DNA of 32,475 nt from Actinomycetota bacterium (GTDB taxonomy: Bacteria; Actinomycetota; Thermoleophilia; Gaiellales; Gaiellaceae), in assembly GCA_947445525.1 (NCBI GenBank), contig CANFDS010000014.1:1-32475 (forward strand). The letters run 5' to 3'. The notes below the pieces were generated by a model, which worked only from the letters and a program-made list of their open reading frames with translations, was not told where the DNA came from and searched no databases. Positions 4,055-13,440 of this stretch are shown piece by piece. Position 1 is the first letter of the stretch; each line of letters begins with the position of its first letter. Made by a program: the position numbers and the translations under genes.

Positions 4055-4783
4055 CTAGACGAGCAGCCGTGCGGCCGCGCCGTAGTGGCGCTGCGCCGGC
4101 CCGATCGCGCCGGCCAGCGAGACGACCTCACCGATCACGATGAGGGCCGGCGTCGGCACGGCGGCGGCTGCCTCCGCGATCTCTGCGAGCACGGATGTGA
4201 CGACCTCCTGGTCGCTACGCGTGCCGTTGGCGATGACGGCGGCGGGCGTGTCGGGGTGCTTGCCCGCTGCGAGCAGGCCCGCGGCGATGCACGGCAGGCT
4301 GCGGGCGCCCATGAAGAAGACGAGCGTGCCGGGGCTGGCCGCCAGCCGCGCGAAGTCGAGGTCGGCGTCGTGACCCATCACGATCGTCGCCTCCTGCGCG
4401 AGGCCGCGGTGCGTGACCGGGATGCCGGCGGCAGCGGGCACCGCGGCGAACGACGACACGCCCGACACCACCTCCACCTCGATGCCGGCGTCACGCAGTA
4501 CGAGCGCCTCTTCGCCGCCGCGGCCGAACACGAACGGGTCGCCGCCCTTCAGCCGGACGACGCGCAGGCCGAGCCGTCCGTAGTCGACGAGCAGGTCGTT
4601 CACCTCGTCCTGGTCGATGCCGTCGCGGTCGACGAGGATCGCGTCCAGCGGCGCCTCCGCGACCAGCTCGGGGCCGACGAGCCGGTCGTAGACGAGCACC
4701 TGGCACTGCTGGATCAGCCGGAGGCCGCGACAGGTGATCAGGTCGGGGTCGCCGGGGCCGGCGCCGACGAGGGCGACGCTCAT
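4055..4783 (-). CDS. cobA: Uroporphyrinogen-III C-methyltransferase
   Basis: 242 residues. It makes precorrin-2 from uroporphyrinogen III using two S-adenosylmethionines, the entry to siroheme and cobalamin. Family motifs are clear: VGAGPGDPDLIT at residues 5-16, LKGGDPFVFGRGGEE in the middle, SGVSSFAAVPAAAGIPVTHRG, and a C-terminal IVIGEVV. No fused precorrin-2 dehydrogenase or uroporphyrinogen synthase domain is present. ATG 4781-4783 overlaps the upstream stop (ATGA) and gives the typical N-terminus; longer starts add unrelated residues. Last gene of the sulfur operon, supplying siroheme for the sulfite reductase encoded first. Confidence 0.95.
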   Translation of the reverse strand: MSVALVGAGPGDPDLITCRGLRLIQQCQVLVYDRLVGPELVAEAPLDAILVDRDGIDQDEVNDLLVDYGRLGLRVVRLKGGDPFVFGRGGEEALVLRDAGIEVEVVSGVSSFAAVPAAAGIPVTHRGLAQEATIVMGHDADLDFARLAASPGTLVFFMGARSLPCIAAGLLAAGKHPDTPAAVIANGTRSDQEVVTSVLAEIAEAAAAVPTPALIVIGEVVSLAGAIGPAQRHYGAAARLLV

Positions 4784-5400
4784 CCGAGCGCCTTCTCGAC
4801 CGTCTGCTGGAAGAACACCTTGCGCTCCTCGTAGGTGGCGAGCTGCTCCTTCGCCCACGGGCGCAGCCGCCGCAGCTCGAGCGCGAGCGCCTGATGTTCG
4901 GGCCCGACGACCCGCCCGATGTCGCGGCGCAGCCGCTGGGCCAGGGCGGGTGACGCACCGCCCGTCGAGATGCCAATCGCGATCGGGTCGCGCCGCAGCA
5001 CCGCGGGCAGGATGAAGTTGCAGAGGTCGGGCACGTCGGCGACGTTGCAGAGCAGGGAGCGCCGCTCGGCATCCTCGTAGACCTGGCGGTTGACCGCCGG
5101 GACGTTCGTCGCGGCGATGACTAGGAAGCGACCGTCGAGGTCGGCCGACTCGTACTCGTGCTGGATCCAGGTGAGCGGGAGCCTCTGCACCGCCGGAATC
5201 GCCGCGGGTGAGATGACGGTGACGCTGGCGTTCGCGTCGAGCAGACCCTCGATCTTCTCGAGAGCGACCGGCCCGGCACCGACGACGAGGCAGTCCCGCC
5301 CCTCGAGGTCGAGGCAGGCCATGTAGAAGCGCTTCTCACGGACGGCACCGGCCGTCGCCGAGCCCGGGCCCTCGCCCGCGAAGATGGCGTGGTCGTCCAC
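4780..5400 (-). CDS. Precorrin-2 dehydrogenase / sirohydrochlorin ferrochelatase (Met8/SirC type)
   Basis: 206 residues. It oxidises precorrin-2 to sirohydrochlorin with NAD and may insert iron to give siroheme. The NAD-binding fold opens with LEGRDCLVVGAGPVALEKIEGLL (about 32-54). The active-site region reads LCNVADVPDLCNFILPA, containing the conserved Asp. An ISTGGASPALAQRLR helix and the C-terminal helical domain follow. GTG at 5398-5400 has AGGAG seven bases upstream, within the preceding stop TAGGAG, so it is preferred although the family usually begins near Met27. The gene ends in an ATGA overlap with the methyltransferase. Confidence 0.93.
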   Translation of the reverse strand: MDDHAIFAGEGPGSATAGAVREKRFYMACLDLEGRDCLVVGAGPVALEKIEGLLDANASVTVISPAAIPAVQRLPLTWIQHEYESADLDGRFLVIAATNVPAVNRQVYEDAERRSLLCNVADVPDLCNFILPAVLRRDPIAIGISTGGASPALAQRLRRDIGRVVGPEHQALALELRRLRPWAKEQLATYEERKVFFQQTVEKALG

Positions 5401-5408
5401 CCTGGCTC

Positions 5409-5903
5409 CTAGATCGCGACGGTATTGAGCCGTGCGCCCTGCCGGTCGACGCGCACCGACAGCTCGATGCCGTCGGCGGCGAGCGTGACGACGTAGGCGC
5501 CCGGCCCGACCGACGAGATCGCCACCTTCTCGAGCTCGCGGCCGACCAGCGTCTGCAGCGCGCCGGTGATCTCGCGGGCGCCGTCGGCCAGCTCCTTGCC
5601 GAGCGGCAGCTTGCGGAACGTCCTGAGCGCGGCCTGCTCGCCCTCGGGGCCGTAGACGGCGCGCAGCCGCCCCGACACGAGGCCGAGCTCGAGCACCTCC
5701 TCGAGCGCCTGGGCGGAGTCGCCGGCGACGGCGCCCTCGTCGACGTCGGCGATCAGCTCGGCGAGCCGCTCGCGGCGGCGCGGATCCTGCACCGCGGCGA
5801 GGACGTGCTGCGCCTCGGCGAGGGCGACCTCGCGGGCCTCGCCCGCGAGCTTGACGGGGGTCGGCTCGGGTGCCGCAGCCGGGGCGGGCGCCTCAGCGCT
5901 CAC
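5409..5903 (-). CDS. Unrecognised Ala/Glu-rich protein inside the sulfur operon
   Basis: 164 residues, GTG start at 5901-5903 preceded by GGGAG and overlapping the APS reductase stop as GTGA. The first 20 residues are Ala/Pro-rich and probably disordered. Residues about 25-125 are helical and charged (DPRRRERLAELIADVDEGAVAG and an ALEEVLELGLVSGRLR helix). The last 40 residues look like beta strands (GAYVVTLAADGIELSVRVDRQG). I recognise no family, cofactor motif, Cys pair or signal peptide. Tight coupling on both sides between APS reductase and siroheme genes argues for a role in sulfite reduction, siroheme supply or their assembly. That is inference from position only. Confidence 0.8.
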   Translation of the reverse strand: MSAEAPAPAAAPEPTPVKLAGEAREVALAEAQHVLAAVQDPRRRERLAELIADVDEGAVAGDSAQALEEVLELGLVSGRLRAVYGPEGEQAALRTFRKLPLGKELADGAREITGALQTLVGRELEKVAISSVGPGAYVVTLAADGIELSVRVDRQGARLNTVAI

Positions 5904-6682
5904 TGCGCTCCCTCGCCGACGATCGCCGCGACCTGGTGCTCGAAGCCGCCGGTCTCGATCGCGCAGTGCATGCCGCACTCCTTGGGCGCGCCCGACTCCC
6001 ACCACCAGCGGCCGGCGCGCTTCTCCTCGCCGGGGTTGATCGCCCGGGTACAAGGCGCGCAGCCGATCGAGGTGTAGCCCTGCGCGTACAGCGGATGCAC
6101 GGGCAGGTCGTGCTCGCGGATGTAGTCCCAGACCTCGTCCTCAACCCACTCGGCGAGCGGGTTGAGCTTGACGACCCCGCCGTGGTCGTGGTCGACCTCG
6201 AGCTTGCGGATGTTGGTGCGCGTCGCCCACTGGTCGCGGCGCAGGCCGGTGACCCAGGCGTCGAGCGTCGCAAGCTTGCGCTGGAGCGGCACCACCTTGC
6301 GCGTCGAGCAGCACTGCAGGCGGTTCTCGATCGACGTGTACATCAGGTTCGGCCCATGCAGGTTGATGAGGCGCTGCACCGGCACCGGATCGGGCATGAG
6401 GATGTCGAGGTTGAGGCCGGGGTAGCGCGTACGGAGCTGCTCGATCAGCTCGAAGCTCTCCTGCGGCAGCCGCCCCGTGTCGACGGTGAACACCTGCACC
6501 GCCGGGTCGATCGCGTAGGCCATGTCGATCAGGACGACGTCGTCGGCCTGCAGCGCCACCGAGACGGCGATGCGCTTGCCGAAGCGGTCGATCGCCCACT
6601 CGAGCACGTCCCACGGCTCCAGCCCCTCGAACTCGACGGCGAGCTCACCCGCCTCCAGCTCGTCGATGATCTCGATGCTCAT
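5900..6682 (-). CDS. cysH: Assimilatory APS reductase (4Fe-4S, CysH family)
   Basis: 260 residues of the PAPS/APS reductase family. It reduces adenylyl sulfate to sulfite using thioredoxin. Four cluster cysteines are present as a CC pair (Cys124-Cys125 in RLQCCSTRKV) and a CxxC (Cys208, Cys211 in IGCAPCTR). The catalytic Cys lies in the C-terminal KECGMH (Cys236). The two cluster pairs mark the APS-using type rather than the cluster-free PAPS type of enteric bacteria. The nucleotide loop is at SVALQADDVVL, where the usual SFG or SFS is altered, and DTGRLPQESF matches the family. GGGAG lies five bases before the ATG. Second gene of the operon, 9 bases after the sulfite reductase. Confidence 0.95.
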   Translation of the reverse strand: MSIEIIDELEAGELAVEFEGLEPWDVLEWAIDRFGKRIAVSVALQADDVVLIDMAYAIDPAVQVFTVDTGRLPQESFELIEQLRTRYPGLNLDILMPDPVPVQRLINLHGPNLMYTSIENRLQCCSTRKVVPLQRKLATLDAWVTGLRRDQWATRTNIRKLEVDHDHGGVVKLNPLAEWVEDEVWDYIREHDLPVHPLYAQGYTSIGCAPCTRAINPGEEKRAGRWWWESGAPKECGMHCAIETGGFEHQVAAIVGEGAQ

Positions 6683-6691
6683 CTCGTCTCC

Positions 6692-8335
6692 CTACTCGTC
6701 GTCGTCGCGGCGGCTGCGTGCGGGCTCGACCCCGGCCAGCACGCCCAGCTCGTCGTCGGTCATGCGGTCGCAGAAGGCCTTGAAGGTCTCGCCGTCGAGG
6801 CGGCCGTCGAGCCAGCCCTGGATGAGGCCCTGGACGGGCGCGTCCAGCTCCGCGCTGAGGATGCGACGGAACAGCGGCCGGCCGATCGCGGCGTCGGCGC
6901 CGAGGCCGCCGCGCACGAAGATGTCGTAGGCCTGGCGGCGGGCGCCACCCTCGTCGCGGGCCGTGGTGCCCTGGAAGCCGAGGTCGGCGATCCAGTGCTG
7001 GGCGCACGCGTGCGGGCAGCCGTCGAGCTGCAGGCGGAGGTCGCCGATGGTGTCGCCGAAGCGCTTCTCCAGGTTGTCGATGAGCGGGCCGAGGCGCCCC
7101 TTCGTCTCGGCGACCGAGAAGTTGCAGTGCGGCTCGCCGGTGCAGGCGATGCCGTTGGCGCGCAGCTTGTTGACGCGCAGCGAGAAGCCGATCTCCTCGA
7201 CGCGCGCGATGGCAGCGTCCACCTGTGCGGCGGGAACGTCGACGAGCAGGAAGTTTTGCTGGCGCGTGATGCGCAGGCCCGCGCCGAGCGAGTCGGCGAG
7301 GTCGGCGACCTGCTGCAGCTGAGGGCCGGAGATGAGGCCGAGGTGCACCGGCACGCCGATCGTGGTGAGGCCCGGCTGCGACTGCGGCGTGATGCCCATG
7401 TGGTCGATCGGGCGGGGCGCGGGCGGCGGCGTGAAGCTCTCGAGCGTGCGGCCGAGCAACTTCTCGACGCGCTCGCGCATGCCCTCGGGGCCGATGTCGT
7501 CGATCATGAACTTCAGGCGCGCCTTGACGCGCGAGACCCGGTAGCGCAGGTCGGTCTTCCAGGCGTCGAGGATCGCGGCGAGCACCTCGACCGCCTCGTC
7601 CTTCGGCACGAACACGCCCATGTCACGGGCCAGCCGCGGCACCGACGAGAGCCCGCCGCCGACGCTCACCGAGAAGCCCTCGCGGCCGTCCACAATCTGC
7701 CCGATCAGGGCGATGCAGTTGATCTCGGGCGCGTTGCACTGGTGCGCGCAGGCCGAGATCGTAATCTTGTGCTTGCGCGGCAGGTCGACGTAGTCGGGGT
7801 TGCCGTAGAAGAAGTCGGCGGCCTGGCGGACGACGTCGCTCGCGTCGAACAGCTCGCCGTGGCCGAGGCCCGCCACCGGGCAGCCGGTGATATTGCGCAC
7901 CGTGTCGCCGCAGCCGCCGGCCGTGTTGAGATCGGCGGCGTCGAGGTCGGCGAACACGTCGGGCAGCGCGTGCAGGTCGAGCCAGTGCAACTGGACGTTC
8001 TGCCGGGTCGCCAGCTCGGCGTCGCCGCGGCCGTACTGCTCGGACACCTGGCCGATGGCGCGCAGCTGCCGCGGCGAGACCTCGCCGGCGGGCAGCTTGA
8101 CGCGCAGCATGAAGCGCCCGATCTTGGGCTTGTCGTGGTAGAGGCCCCACCACTGGAGGCGGACGATGTCCTCCTCCGCGACCGACTCGTAGCCGAGCGC
8201 GATCAGAGCCGGAAGCTCCTCGCGGATGCCTAGCGGGCTCTTGTCGCGCTTGATGCGCTCGACGGGGTTGCGCTTGTAGACGAGCTCCCAGTCGGGCTCG
8301 GGCGCGGACGGTCGCTTGCGGGGCTCGGGCGTCAT
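6692..8335 (-). CDS. Ferredoxin-type sulfite (or nitrite) reductase
   Basis: 547 residues, the usual size for single-chain siroheme [4Fe-4S] reductases. It reduces sulfite to sulfide, or nitrite to ammonia, with six electrons from ferredoxin. The two pseudo-symmetric halves are visible: the N-half with FMLRVKLPAG, ATRQNVQLHW, NITGCPVAG and ISACAHQCNAPEIN, and the C-half with RITRQQNFLLVDV. Cluster and siroheme ligation is by ACTGEPHC and, about 40 residues later, GCPHAC, the C-x5-C and C-x3-C pairs. A sulfite substrate is favoured because the next gene is APS reductase and siroheme genes follow. First gene of the operon; the promoter and repeats lie at 8336-8471. Confidence 0.93.
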   Translation of the reverse strand: MTPEPRKRPSAPEPDWELVYKRNPVERIKRDKSPLGIREELPALIALGYESVAEEDIVRLQWWGLYHDKPKIGRFMLRVKLPAGEVSPRQLRAIGQVSEQYGRGDAELATRQNVQLHWLDLHALPDVFADLDAADLNTAGGCGDTVRNITGCPVAGLGHGELFDASDVVRQAADFFYGNPDYVDLPRKHKITISACAHQCNAPEINCIALIGQIVDGREGFSVSVGGGLSSVPRLARDMGVFVPKDEAVEVLAAILDAWKTDLRYRVSRVKARLKFMIDDIGPEGMRERVEKLLGRTLESFTPPPAPRPIDHMGITPQSQPGLTTIGVPVHLGLISGPQLQQVADLADSLGAGLRITRQQNFLLVDVPAAQVDAAIARVEEIGFSLRVNKLRANGIACTGEPHCNFSVAETKGRLGPLIDNLEKRFGDTIGDLRLQLDGCPHACAQHWIADLGFQGTTARDEGGARRQAYDIFVRGGLGADAAIGRPLFRRILSAELDAPVQGLIQGWLDGRLDGETFKAFCDRMTDDELGVLAGVEPARSRRDDDE

Positions 8336-8360
8336 CGCAGGCCACCGTAGCAGTGCAAGC

Positions 8361-8420
8361 TATACGAAGTAAAGCGACTACCGTTCGTGAAGTATCGTCA
8401 CTTTGCTTTGTGAAGAAACG
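8361..8420. promoter_or_regulatory. Three 23-base-spaced direct repeats before the sulfur operon
   Basis: Three GAAG-centred copies start at 8366, 8389 and 8412, exactly 23 bases apart. The second (TTCGTGAAGTATCG, 8384-8397) and third (TTTGTGAAGAAACG, 8407-8420) agree at 11 of 14 bases; the first (from 8361) is weaker. The tract is AT-richer than its surroundings. It also contains an imperfect inverted repeat (8366-8378 with 8397-8409, 10 of 13). It lies 26-85 bases upstream of the sulfite reductase start, a place for a sulfur-responsive regulator. No clear -35/-10 pair could be fixed. Apart from this tract, nothing was seen in 8336-8471. Confidence 0.5.
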
Positions 8421-8471
8421 CTTTCCGGGTTAGCTTCTCACCTTCCGGGACGGTGATCGCCGCCAGGCTCG

Positions 8472-9692
8472 CTACCCGAACACCCCGGCCGCCCGCAGCA
8501 CCTCCAGCCGCTCCGCCGAGTAGCCGCAGTACTCGCTCAGCACGGCGTCGGTGTGCTCGCCGCGGAAGGGGCCGCGCACGGGCGGCTGGGCCCGCAGCTC
8601 CTGCCCGTCCTCGCCCGACAGGCGCAGCGGCGAGGCGATCGTGCGCACCCGGCCGAGCGTCGGGTGGTCGTGCTCGACGATGTCCTCGCGGGCGATGGTC
8701 TGCGGGTCCTCGAGCGCCTCGAGCACGGTGTTGATCCGGGCCGACGGGATGCCCGCGGCGACGAGCAGCGAGATCCACTCGTCCACAGTCCTCGCCAGGA
8801 ACACCTCGTCGAGGATCGGCAGCAGCGTCGCGCGGTTCTCGTGCCGCCCGGCCGTCGTCGAGAAGCGCGGATCGGCGTTCAGCTCGGGCCGGCCGACGAC
8901 GTCGCAGAGCCGCTCCCAGAACTTCTGCTTGGCGGCCGCAACCACGAACCAGCCGTCGGCCGCCTTGAAGTTCTGGAACGGGACGATCGACGGGTGGCCC
9001 GAGTTGGGCATGCGCTCGGGCACGTAGCCGTGCGTCGCCGCCCAGGGGCCGATGTACATCAGCTCGTGCAGCGCGGTCTCGAACAGCGAGACGTCCGCGT
9101 CGCAGCCGACGCCGTCGCGGCGGGCCCGCCAGATGCCGCCGAGCACGGCGATCGCCGAGGCGTAGCCGCCGGAGAGATCGACCAGCGAGAGCCCCGACTT
9201 GGTCGGCGGCCCGCCGGGCTCGCCGGTGAGCGACTGCCACCCGGCGAGCCCCTGCATCATGTAGTCGTAGCCGCCCTCGTTCGCCCGCGGCCCCGTCATG
9301 CCGAAGCCCGAAAGCGAGCAGCAGACGATGCGCGGGTTGACATCCTTCAGCTGCGCGTAGGTCAGCCCGAGCTTCAGCGGCTGGTCGCCACGGAGGTTCG
9401 AGTACACCGCGTCGGCGTTGCGGACGAGGTCATGGAAGACCTCGGTTGCCTGGGGGTGCTTGAGATCGAGCGAGACCGACTTCTTGTTGCGGTTGAAGGT
9501 CTCGAAGAAGAGGGAGTCCTCGCCCTCCTGGAACGGGGGCACGTAGCGGCTGACGTCGCCGCCCGAGCCCGGGTCCTCGATCTTGATGATCTCCGCGCCC
9601 AGGTCGGACAGCTGGAGCGTGGCCCACGGGCCTGCCCCGAACTGCTCGACCGAGACGATACGGACGTCGGCGAGTGGCAGCAGCCCCGCCAT
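8472..9692 (-). CDS. Class III CoA-transferase (CaiB/BaiF family)
   Basis: 406 residues. Family enzymes move CoA between acyl-CoA and free acids through an aspartyl-CoA intermediate. The catalytic Asp is Asp172 in SLVDLSGG. The N-terminal PLADVRIVSVEQFGAGPWATLQLSDLGAEIIKIE and the NRNKKSVSLDLK and GPRANEGGYDYMMQGLAG segments are family hallmarks, and the C-terminal part carries the usual HPTLGRVRTIASP. Length is standard. Its ATG directly follows the stop of the upstream racemase-family gene with no gap. Last gene of the leftward catabolic operon, where it probably activates or recycles the acid substrate as a CoA ester. Donor and acceptor cannot be told from sequence. Confidence 0.93.
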   Translation of the reverse strand: MAGLLPLADVRIVSVEQFGAGPWATLQLSDLGAEIIKIEDPGSGGDVSRYVPPFQEGEDSLFFETFNRNKKSVSLDLKHPQATEVFHDLVRNADAVYSNLRGDQPLKLGLTYAQLKDVNPRIVCCSLSGFGMTGPRANEGGYDYMMQGLAGWQSLTGEPGGPPTKSGLSLVDLSGGYASAIAVLGGIWRARRDGVGCDADVSLFETALHELMYIGPWAATHGYVPERMPNSGHPSIVPFQNFKAADGWFVVAAAKQKFWERLCDVVGRPELNADPRFSTTAGRHENRATLLPILDEVFLARTVDEWISLLVAAGIPSARINTVLEALEDPQTIAREDIVEHDHPTLGRVRTIASPLRLSGEDGQELRAQPPVRGPFRGEHTDAVLSEYCGYSAERLEVLRAAGVFG

Positions 9693-11710: not shown

Positions 11711-12697
11711 CTAGGCGGCCTCCACCGCGGCCAACTCGGCGCGCAGCGGCGCGACGACCTGCTCGTGCAGCGCCTCGACCTCGCCGAGGAAGCCAGCCGC
11801 CGGGCCGACGGGCGTGAGGACGACGTGGCGGACGCCGGCGTCGACGTACTCGCGGAGGCGCACGCGGCACTCCTCCGGGTCGCCGGCAATCGCGTAGCGC
11901 GCGACGTGGTGCGGCTCGAAGGCGGTGTTGTAGCGCTCGCCGAGGTGAGCGCGCGCCTGCTCGCGGGCGGCGTCGCCGTCGGCGCCGACATGCGCGGGCA
12001 GGACGATCGCGGGCGTGAGCACCGCGGGGTCGCGGCCTGCCTCGGTGGCGTGCCGGCGCACCTCGGCGAAGTCGCGGGCGAAGCGGTCGGCCGAGACCAT
12101 GTAGGCGAGCCAGCCGTCGCCGAGGCGCCCGGCGCGGCGCAGGGCGGCCGGGCTGCGCCCGCCCACCAGCAGCGGCGGCCCGCCGGGCCGCGCCGGCGGC
12201 GGGTCGATCGAGACGCCCTGGAACGGGTAGAAGCGGCCGTCGTGCGCCGCAACCCGTCCCTCGGCGCCCGCCCACCACAGCTCGCGCACGGCGGCGATCG
12301 CCTCGTCGGCGCGGGCGCCGCGCTCGCCGATCGGCACGCCCGCCGCCGCGAAGTCCTGCTCCCCCTCACCGCCGACACCGACGCCGAGCAGCAGCCGGCC
12401 GCCGGAGACGAAGTCGAGCGAGCCGTACGTCTTCGCCACCCACGACGGGTGGCGCAACGGCAGCAGCACCAGCCCAGCGCCGAGCAGCAGGCGCTCGGTG
12501 CGGGCCGCAAAGATCGACAGCGCCACGCTCAGGTCGAGGATCGGGTTGTGGAACGAGAGATGCTCACCGCCCCAGATCGAGTCCCAGCCGAGCTCCTCGG
12601 CGAGGTCGGCGACGGCGCGGAAGAGACCCGGGTCGGGCAGGCCCTCGGTGTGCTGGCCGCTGCCCTGGATGCCGAAGAGCACGGTGTCGTTGCTCAC
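11711..12697 (-). CDS. LLM-class flavin/F420-dependent oxidoreductase
   Basis: 328 residues of the bacterial luciferase-like TIM-barrel family. Typical segments are LAEELGWDSIWGGEHLSFHNP near residues 32-52, LGAGLVLLPLRHPSWVAKTYGSLDFVSGGRLLLGVGVGGEGEQDFAAAGVP at about 72-122, and the C-terminal GDPEECRVRLREYVDAGVRHVVL. The SGGRLLLGVGVG loop and this C-terminus are typical of F420-dependent actinobacterial members, although FMN use cannot be excluded. It would oxidise or monooxygenate a small organic substrate. The GTG start overlaps the GntR gene stop as GTGA, so it is translated with the regulator. Confidence 0.9.
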   Translation of the reverse strand: MSNDTVLFGIQGSGQHTEGLPDPGLFRAVADLAEELGWDSIWGGEHLSFHNPILDLSVALSIFAARTERLLLGAGLVLLPLRHPSWVAKTYGSLDFVSGGRLLLGVGVGGEGEQDFAAAGVPIGERGARADEAIAAVRELWWAGAEGRVAAHDGRFYPFQGVSIDPPPARPGGPPLLVGGRSPAALRRAGRLGDGWLAYMVSADRFARDFAEVRRHATEAGRDPAVLTPAIVLPAHVGADGDAAREQARAHLGERYNTAFEPHHVARYAIAGDPEECRVRLREYVDAGVRHVVLTPVGPAAGFLGEVEALHEQVVAPLRAELAAVEAA

Positions 12698-13440
12698 GGC
12701 AGCGGCCTTCCGGCAGCAGGCACGCTGCGGACCGCCTGCTTCCAGGCGCGGTCGTAGTACGGGCGCAGGAAGTCGAGGTGGTCGCGCATCTCGCCCTCGG
12801 CCTCGTCGGGGCGCCCGCCCGCCACCGCCGCCGAGATCGCCCGGTGCTGCTCGTGAATGCCGGTGTGGAAGCTGCGGCCGAGGCTCGACCGGGTGAGGTG
12901 GGTCTGCAGCACGGTGAACAGCGGCTGCGCCGCGATCAGGATCAGCTGGTTACCGCACGCGCCCAGCAGCGTCGAGTGGAAGTCCTTGTTGATTGCAAAC
13001 TGCTCGCTCGCCGGCAGCTGGAGCATCTCGTCGTCGATCGCCGCCTCGAGCGCTGCGATGTCCTGGTCGCGGCGACGCTGGGCCGCGAGCCGGGCGGCCG
13101 GCACCTCGAGCAGGTCGCGCGCCTCGAGCAGCTCGTCGAGCGAGAGATCGTGTGACTCGGTCATCAGCGCGATGCTCGAGCGGAGGAACTCCGAGATGTG
13201 GTCGACCGTGGGGCGCGTGATGTACGAGCCGCCGCCCGCGCCCTTCGCGGTGGTGATCAGGTTCTGGGCAGCGAGCACGCGCAGCGCCTCGCGCACCGTC
13301 GCCCGGCTGACCCCGAAGTCGCCTGCCAGCATGTTCTCGTTGGGCAGGCGCTCGCCGCGCACGAGGTCGCCCGCGAGGATCAGGGCACGCAGCTGGTCGG
13401 CGACCTGCTCGTAGGCGCGGCGCACCCGCTGCACGGGCAT
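12694..13440 (-). CDS. GntR-family transcription regulator, FadR/FCD subfamily
   Basis: 248 residues. The winged helix is at about 8-78, with YEQVADQLRALILAGDLVRGERLPNE and the recognition region FGVSRATVREALRVLAAQNLI. The FCD ligand domain is at about 95-228, and its metal-binding histidines are visible as His155 (NKDFH), His199 (EQHRAI) and His221 (RDHLDFL). FCD regulators usually sense carboxylic acids and repress neighbouring catabolic genes by binding palindromes with a GT-N3-AC core. Such a palindrome lies in the divergent promoter region at 18714-18724. The gene is inside the leftward operon, coupled to the LLM gene. It is the likely local regulator; effector unknown. Confidence 0.93.
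   Translation of the reverse strand: MPVQRVRRAYEQVADQLRALILAGDLVRGERLPNENMLAGDFGVSRATVREALRVLAAQNLITTAKGAGGGSYITRPTVDHISEFLRSSIALMTESHDLSLDELLEARDLLEVPAARLAAQRRRDQDIAALEAAIDDEMLQLPASEQFAINKDFHSTLLGACGNQLILIAAQPLFTVLQTHLTRSSLGRSFHTGIHEQHRAISAAVAGGRPDEAEGEMRDHLDFLRPYYDRAWKQAVRSVPAAGRPLP

Follow-up and report, generated by a model that had tools for sequence, protein, structure and literature searches.

LysR-type sulfur regulators, namely CysB, CysL, CmbR and CysR, act at tandem dyads carrying T-N11-A near the -35 region. In Firmicutes, control of cysteine genes by LysR factors has been described in the portions of the literature consulted. In Streptomyces coelicolor, the available part of the report on NdgR, a regulator of the IclR family, gives a 15-bp imperfect palindrome, [GT]T[CT]CAC[CA][CTA][TC][GC][TC]GGAC, with cysI, cysH, cysM, a thiosulfate sulfurtransferase gene and leucine genes among its targets (PMC4340878). 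In Bacillus and Staphylococcus, according to the excerpts at hand, a single repressor of the Rrf2 family, CymR, governs many genes of cysteine and sulfur metabolism, including cysK (PMC2869319, PMC2940859), and Rrf2/CymR is named as a candidate sulfur regulator in Rhodococcus in the excerpts covering that genus. Cysteine regulons under one factor are already known; the literature searched, as far as its accessible text goes, held no description of the dyad motif reported below, of its gene set or of a sulfur regulon in the Gaiellaceae.

The locus compared here with these systems lies in the window, i.e. the whole stretch of 32,475 nucleotides analysed, from a member of the Gaiellaceae. As the sequence-only reading had it, the tract of interest stands in front of a sulfur assimilation operon, with sir, cysH and the sirohaem genes running on the minus strand from position 8335. 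The gap separating sir from the neighbouring CoA-transferase gene is AT-rich by the standard of this genome and holds, as conserved units, three 17-bp dyads of the form RCTTYAC-N3-GTRAAGY, with centres 18 bp (dyads 1 and 2) and 23 bp (dyads 2 and 3) apart (Table 1), the best copy reading GCTTTAC-TTC-GTATAGC on the minus strand. When the window was scanned with a leave-genus-out matrix, built solely on 17 sir sites from outside the genus, these three took the best three positions of its whole length, in the order dyad 3, dyad 1 and dyad 2, the fourth position scoring 7.5 bits. The sole regulator-like gene recognised in the window codes for a GntR-type protein (12694-13440) and adjoins a gene for a luciferase-like oxidoreductase; nothing was seen that ties it to the sulfur operon.

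Table 1. Features of the sulfur operon and of the intergenic region in the window; operators and promoter hexamers are predictions.
Feature	Coordinates	Strand	Remarks
sir, ferredoxin-type nitrite/sulfite reductase	6692..8335	-	NIR_SIR and NIR_SIR_ferr domains; NirA/Sir models below cut-offs
cysH, phosphoadenylyl-sulfate / APS reductase	5900..6682	-	NF002537 and TIGR02055 above cut-off
Sirohaem synthase N-terminal domain protein	4780..5400	-	TIGR01470 above cut-off
Uroporphyrinogen-III C-methyltransferase	4055..4858	-	TIGR01469 and NF004790 above cut-off
Intergenic region holding the dyad array	8336..8471	none	136 bp, between the sir start (8335) and the CoA-transferase gene (8472-9692)
Dyad operator 1 (predicted)	8359..8375	-	GCTTTAC-TTC-GTATAGC; 25.8 bits full matrix, 22.9 leave-genus-out; overlaps putative -35
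Dyad operator 2 (predicted)	8377..8393	-	ACTTCAC-GAA-CGGTAGT; 17.6 bits full matrix, 16.1 leave-genus-out; one strong and one weak half
Dyad operator 3 (predicted)	8400..8416	-	TCTTCAC-AAA-GCAAAGT; 24.4 bits full matrix, 23.7 leave-genus-out
Putative -35 hexamer	8368..8373	-	TTTACT, inside dyad 1; 18 nt before putative -10; read from sequence, unreported by consensus scanner
Putative -10 hexamer	8344..8349	-	TACGGT; ATG start codon 8 nt further on

Across the family, the dyad proved to be a constant companion of sir. A de novo palindrome search by expectation-maximisation, applied to the roughly 250 bp preceding 20 sir genes, recovered ACTTTAC-N3-GTAAAGT in all 20, with a log-likelihood of 193 against 26-37 in ten shuffled sets. 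Among the 58 sir loci scanned, every Gaiellaceae locus with enough upstream DNA scored at least 18 bits (19/19) and none of the 38 loci from other lineages reached 15 bits; the family locus L053, with 36 bp of upstream DNA, lies outside the 19, and L074 and L091, with no upstream DNA, are unscored. An early dyad-like match, at L036, was rejected as lying inside a coding region. Since the genes upstream of sir vary among genera, the dyad is kept independently of its context. The regulator array suggested by the sequence-only reading gains strong support. At the DNA level, a similarity search with the tract in 61 genomes gave convincing matches only in two congeners, the remainder being noise. 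The gap aligns in these three same-genus loci, where the 27-base block AACGGTAGTCGCTTTACTTCGTATAGC shows no difference between the window, L041 and L093. Dyad 1 has the same sequence in both congeners, dyad 3 scores 22.5 bits in L041 and 18.0 in L093, and dyad 2 scores 18.6 bits in L041 and 13.4 in L093, where it is weak and half-conserved. Set beside the NdgR palindrome as its available description gives it, the dyad core shares the TYCAC...G-G-A arrangement, whereas the outer bases differ (GTCCAC-N3-GTGGAC for NdgR vs. CTTYAC-N3-GTRAAG here).

The same tract had first been read as a direct repeat with an exact 23-bp period. GAAG does occur at 8366, 8389 and 8412 in exact 23-bp steps, and the flanks of copies 2 and 3 do match at 11 of 14 positions (8/14 for copies 1 and 2, 9/14 for copies 1 and 3). 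While the even spacing of these words stands, the repeat unit does not: GAAG at 8366 forms the spacer of dyad 1 and is out of register with the other two copies, the homologous half-sites, i.e. GTAAAGC (8369-8375), GTGAAGT (8387-8393) and GTGAAGA (8410-8416), being 18 and 23 bp apart. The reading as a simple direct repeat of 23 bp was consequently rejected, its period resolving into dyads at 18 and 23 bp, and a repeat search of the tract reported no 23-bp family. Relatives keep the dyads and not the GAAG direct repeat; in the congeners copies 1 and 3 are retained, and copy 2, which reads CTTTACC in place of CTTCACG in L093, is lost there as GAAG yet still serves as a dyad half-site. In other genera, sir is preceded by one, two or three dyads with other spacings, second dyads being found at 18, 21, 23 or 32 bp in promoters of other sir genes, of cysK and of carbonic anhydrase genes, so that the general pattern is one of multiple dyads at varying spacings and not of a constant 23-bp period. 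The proposed placement on one face of the DNA is a loose fit, 18 bp and 23 bp amounting to 1.7 and 2.2 helical turns and the 41 bp of the outer pair to about 3.9. As for the imperfect hairpin that had also been pointed out, it is nothing special (DNA fold z -0.15, equalled by 85 of 200 shuffles; RNA fold z -1.36, 16 of 200). The tract is upstream of the predicted transcription start, and no Rfam family, hence no known cis-regulatory RNA, matched in the window; with ordinary folds and no such match, a riboswitch or hairpin reading was rejected.

Beyond sir, a weight-matrix model aligned on 42 sites minus L116:4166, all in one orientation, found 61 sites in 103 family genomes, of which 56 were counted by hand upstream of sulfur-related genes, namely 15 sir, 10 DUF4395, 8 SseA, 7 carbonic anhydrase, 5 cysK, 5 peroxiredoxin, 2 MoeB, 2 metY and 2 GCS2; the other five precede an aminotransferase gene, AmtB, lon, a KorA-like gene and, in one case, no gene. 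Family models identify the targets as cysK-cysE, metY, a rhodanese-MoeB gene adjoining cysM and genes for a GCS2 carboxylate-amine ligase, a sulfurtransferase of the SseA type, DUF4395, a 1-Cys peroxiredoxin and carbonic anhydrases of two subgroups. In the window's own genome (G000), sites precede sir, cysK-cysE, rhodanese-MoeB (on two contigs) and GCS2 (also on two contigs), and the dyad regulon of this genome contains no regulator gene. A single operator motif is placed upstream of several sulfur genes, both within one genome and across genomes. Regarding independence from the training set, 32 of the 40 matches compared repeat no training 21-mer, and 28 of these 32 precede sulfur-related genes. 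In 1.17 Mb fetched regardless of dyads, six sites of at least 19 bits were found, whereas 40 permuted matrices averaged 0.35 and gave at most 3. Of the six, three lie at leuA in two genomes, one at a peroxiredoxin gene, one at a second HxlR gene and one at an unassigned position. At the cut-off used, with stricter filters in force, 60 of the 103 family genomes were without a match; the sulfate transporter genes carry no dyads, and in G021 cysK and lon likewise have none. It takes the matrix to separate the sites, since a one-mismatch dyad pattern showed no enrichment genome-wide over a reversed control, a first exact pattern search having given 15 strand-wise matches vs. 8 in the control. These dyads most likely define a new cysteine/sulfur regulon. 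Of note, in the G000 assembly, whose contamination is 8.28%, the MoeB-cysM locus (contigs C9/C146) and the GCS2 locus (C20/C135) each occur in two versions, which suggests mixed strains. The leuA dyads, before 2-isopropylmalate synthase in G031 and G034 (L441:8632, L445:9442, L445:9519), resemble the leucine and cysteine target set of NdgR.

With respect to the core promoter, a sigma-70 consensus scan of the tract returned no promoter at the scanner threshold, and the hexamers of Table 1 place dyad 1 over a putative -35 element. As 14 of 17 sir promoters have a TANNNT 8-9 nt past the dyad, the dyad covers the -35 region at sir; with the ATG only 8 nt after the putative -10, the sir mRNA is likely leaderless. 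By eye, a -10 hexamer (TATACT or TACACT) falls within the dyad at MoeB genes, the start codon falls within it at DUF4395 genes and TATACT stands just before it at one SseA gene. Many targets show a -10-like hexamer some 6-10 nt ahead of the start codon (8333-8349 in the window, as well as MoeB and DUF4395 promoters of relatives), and the layout suggests that leaderless mRNAs may be the rule for the target gene set. A SAM riboswitch (RF00162), an RNA leader element that also controls sulfur genes in the family and is not found in the window, follows the dyad at sir of G032 and at metY of G032 and G093 (L268:1446-1569, L341:1856-1978, L314:1521-1656); these genes are thereby independently marked as sulfur-responsive and come under double control by dyad and riboswitch.

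Taken as a whole, with a probability of roughly 75%, the tract would be a triple operator for one transcription factor controlling cysteine and sulfur supply across this Gaiellaceae-type family. Each operator would be a 17-21 bp dyad, tcRCTTYAC-WWW-GTRAAGYga, operator 1 lying over the -35 region of the sir-cysH-sirohaem promoter, whose mRNA is probably leaderless, and operators 2 and 3 lying 18 and 41 bp upstream of operator 1. What the computation itself shows is that the dyads exist and are conserved, which genes they precede across the family, and where they sit on the core promoters. Because the motif slides over the -35, the -10 or the start codon, whereas an activator would need a fixed place, a steric repressor suits the dyads, which suggests that the factor reading them represses. 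Concerning the sign of control and the signal, we infer that the factor would most likely be bound when cysteine or reduced sulfur is plentiful, blocking RNA polymerase, and would leave its operators when sulfur runs short; the extra sites would probably strengthen binding through cooperation, and a single protein may read all sites. Going further, it is conceivable, if somewhat short of an even bet, that the dyads mark a lineage-specific master sulfur regulon forming one thiol-homeostasis circuit, under a regulator class new to cysteine control, e.g. a thiol-sensing HxlR protein. If true, the circuit would link sulfate reduction and cysteine synthesis with sulfurtransferases, an enzyme resembling glutamate-cysteine ligase, peroxiredoxin, carbonic anhydrase and the uncharacterised protein DUF4395. 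For an actinobacterial family that has been little studied and whose genomes here are nearly all metagenome assemblies, the dyads provide a concrete regulon with a sharp motif, and a function in sulfur or thiol metabolism is predicted for DUF4395 and for a carbonic anhydrase.

Several other explanations have to be weighed against a family-wide operator array. Chance repeats in an AT-rich promoter gap might seem a ready account of the GAAG words: when the 136-bp gap was resampled 4000 times in first order, three equally spaced GAAG arose in 0.025% of cases, but an equally spaced triplet of any 4-mer appears in 4.2% of resampled gaps and in 19% of 136-bp stretches taken at random from the window, so that GAAG alone is modest evidence. 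The dyads leave next to no room for such an account, as one dyad of at least 17 bits occurs in 0.4% of resampled gaps and two in 0 of 3000, the real gap having three; together with the conservation and the target genes of the dyads, this already refutes chance. The sites could otherwise serve an activator, e.g. of the LysR type with tandem T-N11-A dyads as for CysB, CysL and CmbR, the upstream dyads acting as recruitment sites and the proximal one lying near the -35. The dyad does contain T-N11-A, the array resembles LysR promoters in having tandem sites about two turns apart, and LysR genes occur in all ten dyad genomes tested. This is nonetheless unlikely, for a dyad on the -10 or the start codon, as found in many targets, is a poor position for an activator, no LysR gene among 28 named LysR loci has a dyad of at least 12 bits nearby, and neither of two LysR orthologue groups was found in all ten dyad genomes, some of which are incomplete: each is present in 8 of 10, group 1 being absent from G001 and the single-contig G020 and group 2 from G000 and G012.

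Within a repressor reading, a close precedent by targets is CymR as portrayed in the excerpts cited above, i.e. one repressor over many cysteine and sulfur genes, and a CymR-like Rrf2 repressor has been proposed for Rhodococcus IGTS8. In the family, rrf2 genes do adjoin sulfate ABC transporter or TauE genes; yet the presence of Rrf2 is not associated with that of dyads over 103 genomes (25 with both, 18 with the dyad only, 31 with Rrf2 only and 29 with neither; Fisher p 0.55). Rrf2 is missing from 18 of 43 dyad genomes, including G032 and G090 (97% complete), no dyad lies near eight Rrf2 loci, and sbp and rrf2 are preceded by different sequences, all of which makes such a regulator very improbable here. 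At the Rrf2 loci L224-L231, AT-rich palindrome-like sequences unlike the dyad stand before sbp or rrf2 and probably reflect a separate control of sulfate uptake. An IclR regulator of the NdgR type was rejected, such proteins being absent from the window's genome and both congeners (0/3), and IclR_C gave no match in the dyad genomes G000, G001, G002, G012, G076, G021 and G005. The best lead for the regulator is an HxlR/DUF24-type thiol-sensing repressor, encoded in a lon-hxlR operon or near ilv-leu genes, HxlR proteins such as YodB and HypR being known to sense thiol stress. In G016, G082, G085 and G086, hxlR follows lon and adjoins dyads or dyad targets, lon itself has a dyad in G016 and G061, the lon-hxlR pair is also found in G021, and a dyad stands 48 bp ahead of the start of the second HxlR gene in G021. 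This identification remains tentative and on the doubtful side, since HxlR is a common family and a dyad directly at hxlR or at lon is not a conserved feature: the orthologues of the second HxlR gene in G031 and G034 lack one, as does lon of G021. The identity of the family's sulfur regulator is directly testable using one DNA bait. Among other genes near the dyad targets, XRE-TPR genes repeatedly adjoin some sseA genes and have relatives at several places. In the sulfur cluster of the single-contig genome G020, tandem BioY-like genes (L121:4413-5000 and 5101-5688) look identical over the first 195 residues shown.
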